In this document: piece by piece, positions 49,248 to 51,829 of the stretch
Numbering within the stretch: position 1 is the stretch's first letter
How the letters are laid out: every line of letters begins with the position of its first letter
Notes under the pieces: generated by a model
Databases searched by the model: none
The model's input: only the letters and a program-made list of their open reading frames with translations
What the model was told of the DNA's origin: nothing
Assembly: GCA_009889515.1 (NCBI GenBank)
Contig: WUQR01000068.1
Coordinates: 124,001-188,000 of the forward strand
Direction: 5' to 3'
Origin: Nitrososphaerota archaeon
GTDB lineage: Archaea; Thermoproteota; Nitrososphaeria_A; Caldarchaeales; Calditenuaceae
Length of the DNA stretch: 64,000 bases
Program-made: the position numbers and the translations under genes

Positions 49248-49781
49248 CCCTCCACCAAAACAGAGTTGTTGAGGATTTGGCCAACATCAAGAGGGTCAAG
49301 ACGCTCGGCCCCTCATCCAAAGACTATAGCCTACCGTCAAACACTCGGAGGCATCACAATATCTTTCCCAGCACTCAAACCCCTGTATTAAGGATGCTAG
49401 CCTTAACCAGTAGCTCAGTCCTGCTGGATTGAAAGCATAGGTACTTGGTCTCTATACCACCTCTTCCAAAAGCCTACTAGAATAACTAGTCCTATCTCTA
49501 AGGTCTCCGATATATACTCCATTAACACGCAGTATATCTCGAGCCAAAATTAGCATAGCCGATACCATGTACTCCCCCCGGGTCACTATTATTATAATAA
49601 TAACATCCGACCTAACTTGTTGGAAGTGAGAGAAAAATGGAAGAGAGTTGGCCAAGGGTCACCAGGCCCGACAGTATCTAGGAACCTTGGAAAGGCCGGT
49701 GTTATTAATCCTCGGGCAGTAGAGAACTCTCTACTGCCTAATTAGTCGGGACACCGGCCCTCCAAGATTTTTCCCTACTGT
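49248..49781. other. 534-nt intergenic stretch bearing a long hairpin
   Basis: AT-richer than its surroundings, with no convincing gene. A weak leftward frame (about 49452-49565, MVSAMLILARDIL...) may be remnant coding DNA. An ATTATTATAATAATAA tract (about 49590-49605) could be a promoter or terminator. The right end holds the two-part hairpin 49686-49766. Confidence 0.5.
49686..49766. other. Long hairpin with symmetric internal loop; possible guide RNA
   Basis: Outer stem: CTTGGA (49686-49691) pairs with TCCAAG (49761-49766), and after a small bulge GGCCGGTGT (49694-49702) pairs exactly with ACACCGGCC (49751-49759). Inner stem: GGCAGTAGAG (49715-49724) pairs with CTCTACTGCC (49729-49738) around an AACT loop. 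Between them is a 12/12 nt internal loop. It begins 15 nt behind the stop of the IS110-like gene. It may be a terminator, an element end, or a bridge-RNA-like guide. Structure is seen; role is inference. Confidence 0.7.
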
Positions 49782-50675
49782 CTAGGCTGGTGCTCCCAGC
49801 CTTTCCCATGGTTCCACTTCATTTACTACTGTCCAGATTCTTCGTAGTAGTCTCTCCTCGTCCTTTGCCCTGTGGTATGTGTTCTTCAGCGCTGCTGCTG
49901 TCAGCCTCGAAAGAGCACTCCTAGCCAGTTTATTATAGAACTTATCAAAGCCTTTGCGTCCAGGGAATAGTCCGAAGAATTTCCTAAGTTGTTTATATGA
50001 TTTGCTTCTGTTAACGTATAGTAGCACTTCCACTAGAGCCTCCTTCGCGAATAGATGATTGTCGCCAGAGATTCCTAGAAACTCGACTACCTTGTTGTAA
50101 GCCGACATCCTTTTCTCTGCCTCTGCGACAATCAACCTAGCCATATCATTCATTGCATCTTCTGTGGCCTTGATAAGACCCATCAGAACCCTCCTCTCAG
50201 CATCCTGCAGAGCCTTAGCCCTATTCAGGAGGCCTGTATACGTCCTTAACAGGCTTCGGTACGTGGCGGCTAGTCTCCTGATCACTAGGAAGTCTTCATT
50301 GACTTCTATGAACCATTTAGGCTCTATTCTCATCATTGTTTTGATGTCGTTTCTGCCAGTCTTCGATAATCTCAACTCATTTCTTTTCCTCGCCAGCATA
50401 GTAATTCTCCTCAAATAGAAAACTCTACTACCTCTTCTCAGAACATCTATGAACTCGTCTGTGAGTTCTATGGGTATCGTGTCCACATATAGCTCGTCTC
50501 CTTCTTCAGTGGGAATCTCCGCTATAGTCCTAGCCTTGCCGAATACTTCGCCATCAACAGTGTACAAGTGATAGTTCTCATCGGTCTTAGTCTTACGACT
50601 CTTGCTGGCTAATCTATGAACATCAACGTAGAACCTTCTAACTTCTTTCCTAGGGGAATTTACCATTTCCATCAT
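49782..50675 (-). CDS. IS110-like orphan transposase-related protein
   Basis: A 297-residue basic protein. The N-terminal YVDVHRLASK and the later RRGSRVFYLRR...LRLSKTGRNDIKTM resemble the IS110 DEDD domain (GIDVSKK and KTDxxDA), although the first Asp of the KTD motif is Gly and the conserved EATG is not found. The central coiled region and C-terminal KSYKQLRKFFGLFPGRKGF...LARSALSRLTAAAL resemble the Transposase_20 domain without an obvious catalytic Ser-Gly. It is probably inactive, domesticated or very divergent. Promoter TATA at about 50770, ribosome site GGGGGAG before the ATG. No clear inverted repeats. Confidence 0.45.
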   Translation of the reverse strand: MMEMVNSPRKEVRRFYVDVHRLASKSRKTKTDENYHLYTVDGEVFGKARTIAEIPTEEGDELYVDTIPIELTDEFIDVLRRGSRVFYLRRITMLARKRNELRLSKTGRNDIKTMMRIEPKWFIEVNEDFLVIRRLAATYRSLLRTYTGLLNRAKALQDAERRVLMGLIKATEDAMNDMARLIVAEAEKRMSAYNKVVEFLGISGDNHLFAKEALVEVLLYVNRSKSYKQLRKFFGLFPGRKGFDKFYNKLARSALSRLTAAALKNTYHRAKDEERLLRRIWTVVNEVEPWERLGAPA

Positions 50676-51021
50676 CTATTTATCTCCCCCACAATCAGCC
50701 TTAGTAATCTGATCTATGGGTGGACGTATACCCCTGCTCATGACTAGCAACGGAGTGGGGTTATGGTTATATAGCTTTTTGGACACCTCGGCGAAAGTAA
50801 CAACTTCCATTTCTAACTTTCCCATTTTTCTAGACTTCAGTAATAGTCTTAAGCAGTTATATCTCTGGCAGTAATGCTTTGACTGCCTGATGAAGACAAT
50901 ACAGACGTGGAGAGTGCAGGAAAGAAAGTAGTAGAGATCTAAGAGAATACTAGCATTAAGGAGTCAATTACTGTTGGAGAGGGTGTTGAGGGGGATTTAG
51001 AGGTCATTGGGATGATAAGTA
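50676..51021. other. Intergenic region upstream of the transposase-like gene
   Basis: 346 nt without an intact gene. It contains the leftward TATA GCTATATAAC (about 50770) and, in the right half, an interrupted reading frame described separately. Confidence 0.5.
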
Positions 51022-51038
51022 GTGAAGAGGGCGCCTAA
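50874..51038 (+). pseudogene. Decayed ORF with two in-frame stops
   Basis: From ATG 50874 one frame reads ML*LPDEDNTDVESAGKKVVEI*, then ENTSIKESITVGEGVEGDLE and VIGMISSEEGA*. The acidic, protein-like composition continues across TGA (50880) and TAA (50943 region) in the same frame, and the last stop overlaps the winged-helix gene by 17 nt. This may be the remnant of a regulatory gene. Chance is possible. Confidence 0.35.
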
Positions 51039-51261
51039 AGGTTCGTCAGAGCCTATAATCATGAAGGCTTTAATCAAATGGAAGAAGTCTATACGAGATA
51101 TTGAGCGGGTTACAAAGCTGAAGAAGCCGACACTAACTCTCTCACTGAACAAGATGAAAAAAGAGGGATTGACCAAGCCTCTAGGCATCAGGAGGTCAGG
51201 GAAGTGGGCGCTCACTAAGAAAGGTAGAGCAGTTGTGGTTATGAGGATTGCTACCGTGTAG
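51022..51261 (+). CDS. Winged-helix DNA-binding protein
   Basis: A 79-residue basic protein: MKALIKWKKSIRDIERVTKL (from the internal ATG 51061), then KPTLTLSLNKMKKEGLTKP and GKWALTKKGRAVV, the layout of an ArsR/MarR-like winged helix with a wing ending in a strand. It is only large enough for the DNA-binding domain. Start GTG 51022 or ATG 51061. The target is unknown; it lies beside the decayed ORF and the transposase-like gene. Confidence 0.6.
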   Translation: MKRAPKGSSEPIIMKALIKWKKSIRDIERVTKLKKPTLTLSLNKMKKEGLTKPLGIRRSGKWALTKKGRAVVVMRIATV

Positions 51262-51331
51262 ATTTTAGGCGGTGGAGCCGGGGTGTCTGGAGCCCTACTA
51301 CTTAATTAGTTGGCTGGTTTTTCAGGTGTTG

Positions 51332-51829
51332 ATGAGCATCGAAGCCGCGAAGCTTATCTCAGACTTAAGGCTGAGGCCTGGCTCTAGCCTCTTGGTGGTT
51401 GGGGATGTGGGTGCGGGGACTCTTGGGGTGCTGGCGGAGGCTATGGGTGGTCTAGGGAACATAGTGCTGCTCCACAGGGAGCACGAGCCGCCTGCATGGG
51501 CTCGAAGCCTAGTTGATAAGGGATTGCAGGCGAGGAGAAGCATCGTGCTTGAGCACAACGACTTCCTAGCTACATCCAGCTTCGACGCGGTTTTAGCGCA
51601 GGATGTCTTACACAGGCTTTTGGGTAAGCGTGAATTTGTAATGGAGACTTATAGGCTGCTCAAGCCCGGCGGCCGCACATCCATAATCCAGAGGTTCTGG
51701 CCCTTCACGTCTCTGCGTAGAAGGGAGTTCAGAGCCCTCTTAGAGAAGATCAGATCCTATAATATTGTCGAGTCGAGGGTAGGCTTCTTCTCTGCCTATG
51801 TCGTTCTCGAGAGGCCTGGCAATGGTTAA
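51332..51829 (+). CDS. SAM-dependent methyltransferase-like protein
   Basis: A 165-residue class I methyltransferase fold from ATG 51332. LRPGSSLLVVGDVGAGTLGVL is the SAM loop, SFDAVLAQDVLHRL is motif II, and LLKPGGRTSII motif III. It is shorter than usual, with little substrate-recognition insert. A TATA-like CTTAATTA about 27-34 nt upstream supports the leaderless start over an earlier in-frame GTG/TTG. The DUF779 gene overlaps its end by 8 nt. Confidence 0.75.
   Translation: MSIEAAKLISDLRLRPGSSLLVVGDVGAGTLGVLAEAMGGLGNIVLLHREHEPPAWARSLVDKGLQARRSIVLEHNDFLATSSFDAVLAQDVLHRLLGKREFVMETYRLLKPGGRTSIIQRFWPFTSLRRREFRALLEKIRSYNIVESRVGFFSAYVVLERPGNG

Follow-up and report, generated by a model that had tools for sequence, protein, structure and literature searches.

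A unit of about 2 kb in the genome of a hot-spring Caldarchaeales archaeon carries a recombinase-like gene and, directly behind it, a conserved hairpin RNA; the two strands of a single internal loop of this RNA match the two halves of the site that the insertion has split. We read this unit, with a probability of about 0.9, as an IS110-like RNA-guided mobile element with both guides in one loop, from a family that has no name in Pfam or NCBIfam. The two-guide match was found in nine elements: the window element and the loci L035-L039, L041, L053, and L066. For these nine, the sequence comparisons give good support to a single-loop IS110-like element that chooses its target with the help of RNA guides.

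The window, i.e. the whole stretch of 64,000 nucleotides that was analysed, corresponds to G000:C68:124001-188000. The genomes used for comparison include Archaeon HR02 (G002), Archaeon HR01 (G021), a metagenome-assembled genome of Candidatus Caldarchaeum subterraneum (G017), and the single-contig congener of the latter (G014).

The inserted unit and its hairpin RNA

Joined-flank comparison placed the insertion at 49,278-51,301 and revealed uninterrupted sites in the congeners G004, G002, and G005. The two flanks of the window unit are directly joined in G004 and G002, with an overlap of 2 bp. The unit and its surroundings include the following features:

49,278-51,301, minus strand: inserted unit (putative mobile element), with the 2-bp overlap at 49,276-49,277 / 51,302-51,303 and uninterrupted sites in congeners
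49,782-50,675, minus strand: gene for a predicted IS110-like recombinase of 297 aa (AlphaFold2 model and Foldseek matches)
49,654-49,798, minus strand: modelled part of the conserved putative guide RNA hairpin (19-RNA alignment, covariation, RNA model search)
49,739-49,751, minus strand: 5' guide (L), TCCCGACTAATTA, matching the left target half
49,715-49,738, minus strand: inner hairpin separating the two guides (covarying helix 7)
49,702-49,714, minus strand: 3' guide (R), CGAGGATTAATAA, matching the right target half
49,269-49,277, plus strand: right half of the split target, TTGAGGATT, in the sense of guide R (flank joint)
51,302-51,313, minus strand: left half of the split target, CCAACTAATTAA, in the sense of guide L (flank joint)
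51,023-51,267, plus strand: host-gene piece within the unit (matches elsewhere in G000 and in G004)
49,633-49,637, minus strand: T-run behind the RNA, terminator-like by sequence (T-runs similarly placed in relatives)

The hairpin at 49,686-49,766 lies 15 nt behind the stop of the ORF 49,782-50,675 (minus strand), as described in an earlier note on this DNA, and folds far better than shuffled sequences (z about -6.8; 0/200 shuffles; both strands). The symmetric internal loop reported in that note was recovered as well, but its size is better written as 13/13 than as 12/12; on the gene (minus) strand it comprises TCCCGACTAATTA (49,751-49,739) and CGAGGATTAATAA (49,714-49,702). The stem is longer than had been described. 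The fold reaches from approximately 49,660 to 49,792, partly within the 3' end of the ORF, and towards the T-run at 49,633.

The same hairpin recurs behind homologous genes, namely in three paralogs of the same genome and in many relatives, and the downstream, IS1111-type placement of the RNA mentioned earlier holds for the window and its relatives. A search with an RNA model detected the hairpin in 6 genomes, with one RNA unit per locus and loci far apart. The stems covary, which was one of the checks suggested in the earlier note: among 19 aligned RNAs, 17 of the 35 base pairs display double (compensatory) changes (0/500 shuffles), and 92.4% of cells pair, as compared to 39-55% in slid controls. 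Similar short motifs precede and follow each guide (e.g. ATGTC ... TAAAC), so that the loop is nearly two-fold symmetric. By comparison with PMC12045711, we read this guide loop as tigRNA-like or box C/D-like. A second variable (donor-binding) loop or conserved element ends were not recognised in a non-exhaustive search.

According to the most conservative explanation, also mentioned in the earlier note, the hairpin is merely a transcription terminator or an element end. Its location behind the gene and the T-run behind the hairpin agree with a terminator, whereas the combination of covarying stems with two variable loop strands that fit the insertion site does not. The unit ends are not fixed: copies differ in their start, and the five elements of G014 (L035-L039) extend 30-785 bp past the RNA, which speaks against an element end. 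The agreement between guides and uninterrupted target sites (see below) also contradicts this explanation, to which we assign next to no probability.

Pieces of host DNA were detected within the units. The piece at 51,023-51,267 of the window is 82% identical to G000:C139:499685-499929 and 86% identical to G004:C6:9546-9775; judged by eye from its translation, it reads like a fragment of a winged-helix regulator. A gatD fragment, also named by eye from the translation, is carried in L036 and L053. Circular permutation was considered for the internal left end of L037 and rejected, since the 210 bp at its right-hand side do not correspond to the left part that is missing. Also, the gap beyond the RNA does not represent native flank, since the joined-flank search placed it inside the insert. 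The mechanical start of a methyltransferase ORF (window 51,272-51,829, plus strand) falls within the inserted unit, so the actual start probably lies beyond 51,303. In the G014 elements L035-L039, and also in L042, a conserved ORF of approximately 134-153 aa is located in the left part, upstream of the gene and on the opposite strand; it has no Pfam match.

Guides and split target sites

In the window element, the guide L stretch CCGACTAATTA fits the uninterrupted site of G002 (..GCCGACTAATTAATCCTCAAC..) at 11/11 positions and the window's own flank at 10/11, while the guide R stretch GAGGATTAAT fits the G002 site at 10/10, on the opposite strand. In L035-L039, one loop strand fits the left flank and the other fits the opposite strand of the right flank; these matches are 9/9 in nine of the ten cases and 8/9 in the tenth. 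A joined-flank query recovered the uninterrupted sites of all five elements in the congener G017. These sites (CAGGGTTAAATAATGC, TCACGATTTATACCGT, CTAACCTAAATAAGCT, GCGTGATTTATGGGTT, and CATCCTTAAATAATCT) read as guide 1 and then guide 2 in reverse complement, and the two overlap at the core.

For L053 and L066, only the right half of the target was known initially. The second guide served to predict the left half, which a later search located: CCAACCTTTATAACAT in G014 (10/10) for L053, and GGGAAAAAATATAAATTGAG in G002 (10/11) for L066, the core of which recurs in G005 and G001. Both halves also fit in L041. Only one half fits in L046, whose left half was not found in four congeners. The uninterrupted site of L056, which has a clade-2 RNA, was found, but the two strands of its loop are complementary to one another as well, and no claim is made for this locus.

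In a guide-target matrix of the nine elements, matches amounted to 17-21 of 18-22 nt between guides and their own target and averaged 11.6 between guides and other targets, with one off-diagonal cell at 17/22; the exact guide lengths for the window element, L066, L053, and L041 were fixed after the match had been seen. Among the copies in G002, guide matches of at least 9 nt occurred five times in the expected orientation and never in the control orientation. Many G002 copies had no guide match in the flanks examined, which were small and located on broken contigs. Two guides, opposite target strands, and a shared core, as in the target loop of a bridge RNA, are present in all nine elements. 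The loops match the insertion site of each copy on opposite strands, as seen in the uninterrupted sites of congeners. Together with covariation, this outcome of the loop comparison proposed earlier supports the suggestion that the hairpin is a guide of the bridge-RNA type. In L051/L178, both target halves are unsplit and adjoining (TCTGGATTTAAGCCCTTC), approximately 100 nt behind the RNA.

We propose that the gene and the downstream hairpin RNA work as one unit. The RNA would be made and bound by the protein; one loop strand would spell the left target half on one DNA strand, the other would spell the right half on the other strand, and the two guides would overlap at an AT-rich core. The recombinase-RNA complex would locate the target site, and pairing would drive insertion of the unit there, with the protein performing the recombination chemistry. 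The target would be split by this event, each guide still matching one flank.

For the window element, L036, L038, and L066, the 5' guide fits the left flank; for L035, L037, L039, L041, and L053, it fits the right flank (4:5). The single orientation of the IS1111 group is therefore not seen in these nine elements. The occurrence of both guide orders relative to the gene, as well as the inverted position of the two matches on either side of it, would suit a Piv-like inversion system, in which the segment between two inverted, guide-marked sites flips. In congeners, however, the whole segment is absent rather than flipped, and such a system is exceedingly improbable. A domesticated RNA-guided DNA-binding regulator, with catalysis lost and guides aimed at the promoters of neighbouring genes, is very unlikely. 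The loss of one DEDD acid and of the serine loop (see below) and the location of several right-hand sites near gene starts are in line with such a regulator. On the other side, the two matches together form a single site, which congeners possess in uninterrupted form; some of the left halves are situated at the ends of genes (L037, L039); and multi-copy, recent, lineage-specific insertions point to mobility. Both explanations were set aside because the site is uninterrupted in congeners. For the RNA-guided mobile element, in-place flipping after insertion may be an additional activity.

Predicted fold and relation to described systems

The 297-aa window protein matched no Pfam or NCBIfam family at cut-off, including PF01548/PF02371 and the NCBIfam IS110 models. 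A PDB sequence search returned noise (best matches, release factor 2), and hhalign against an alignment of five IS110 proteins was not significant. A distant relative, L060, displayed a sub-threshold match to PF01548 (15.4 bits; cut-off 29). The AlphaFold2 model obtained from a 21-member alignment has a pLDDT of 86.6, and its best PDB matches in Foldseek were ISCro4 (E 1.2e-6), TIGR-TasR (rank 2), and IS621 (E 5e-6), with E values of 1e-6 to 2e-5 and TM scores of about 0.6. The predicted fold combines the RuvC-like and Tnp/Nop-type parts of the IS110/IS1111 superfamily. Namely, the link to IS110 was obtained by fold search alone, after all sequence-based routes had failed; the label 'IS110-like' given to the gene earlier stands by predicted fold but not by any sequence family model at cut-off.

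Residues D18, D65, and D110 are invariant in the 21-member alignment. The first acid of the DxxD motif is replaced by G/S/A or similar in the clade of the window protein, which accordingly lacks one acid of the full DEDD set; most clade-2 members retain it. No conservation of the IS110 serine loop is seen in A2, where the loop is apparently shortened; a nearly invariant Y247 lies nearby. The missing acid and the unconserved serine loop make the activity of the window copy uncertain.

Other transposase-like genes were noted during the survey. Canonical IS110 genes (PF02371/PF01548) are present in Archaeon HR02 (L150, L152-L154) and other Thermoproteota relatives (L158-L162); none passed PF02371/PF01548 in the window's own genome. 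A third, differently built transposase-like protein of 337 aa is encoded in L113 (3584-4597; G014:C1, approximately 467,800-468,850), with a related RNA behind it. It ends with the same GIPAQQQG tail and has no Pfam match.

The bridge RNA of IS621/ISCro4 possesses a target loop and a donor loop (PMC11208160, PMC11208158). The elements studied here resemble IS110, IS621, and ISCro4 in predicted fold and the IS621/ISCro4 bridge RNA in having two guides in one loop, which address opposite target strands and both include the core. They differ in that only one loop was recognised, the RNA lies downstream of the gene, the serine loop is not conserved, one DEDD acid is missing, near-identical copies have differing guides, and no fixed ends were seen. 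The seekRNA of the IS1111 group is also located downstream of its gene and contains two target-matching stretches for opposite strands (PMC11187229). Described IS110/IS1111 elements occur in one orientation only, and closely related copies of known IS1111-group members share one target (PMC11187229), whereas here the target differs from copy to copy and orientations are divided 4:5.

TIGR-Tas systems comprise an array of units, each with two spacers of about 9 nt that read opposite DNA strands and are flanked by symmetric motifs; bridge RNAs have been described as a fusion of two tigRNAs (PMC12045711). TasR was second in the Foldseek ranking, and the RNA described here looks like one tigRNA, i.e. 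a single dual-spacer unit for opposite strands with symmetric motifs. In contrast to TIGR-Tas, there is one RNA unit behind the gene, not a tandem array, and it is tied to the element's own insertion. The papers found describe two-loop or fixed-target relatives; no report on this family was found in our search, which covered mainly open-access journal articles. The family would represent a one-loop form of bridge/seek RNA in archaea, intermediate between tigRNAs and two-loop bridge RNAs. A recombinase that lacks fixed donor ends would also have practical interest.

Variability of guides among copies

The single-loop RNA, the variable ends, and the differing guides of near-identical copies go beyond the earlier note. 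L036 and L037 differ at 11/11 variable guide positions, at 0/33 positions of the inter-guide hairpin, and at 2/92 positions on the 5' side, and the guides of each fit its own site. Both guides are alike in the G002 pairs L179/L183 and L202/L203, and only one guide is alike in L198/L200 and L194/L205. Guides can therefore change singly as well as both together. The compared sequences show that the changes between copies are specific to the guides.

Candidate routes of this change are rapid mutation with survivorship, recombination between copies, and writing from the target. We are somewhat inclined to think that insertion is RNA-guided while guides are altered by ordinary mutation or recombination between copies, with no writing from the target and with survival only of those lineages that find a matching site. 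This agrees with the partly alike guides of L037 and L039 and with the G002 copies that share one guide and differ in the other, as recombination would give. The confinement of nearly all differences between L036 and L037 to the guides speaks against it, and so does the small chance (estimated at <1 in 1000) that a random new guide pair would have a perfect 16-bp site within a genome of 1.7 Mb. More tentatively, the element could be a self-retargeting transposon, in which each move is accompanied or followed by a rewriting of both guides to the new site, with no change to the remainder of the RNA. One tigRNA-like loop with two guides would then suffice, no fixed donor ends would be needed, and flanking host DNA would be picked up for this reason. 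If guides are indeed written from the target, this would be a new route, outside CRISPR, by which guide information is acquired. With near-identical copies in a single genome, whose differing guides fit their own sites, the natural address change of RNA-guided elements becomes testable.

Approximately 18 RNA copies were detected in Archaeon HR02, several of them without a full-length gene beside. One of these copies, L183 (G002:C24:11602-11714), shares only about 190 bp around the RNA with L179, and the guides of the two are identical. L183 and the other gene-less RNA copies of this genome are possible non-autonomous elements.
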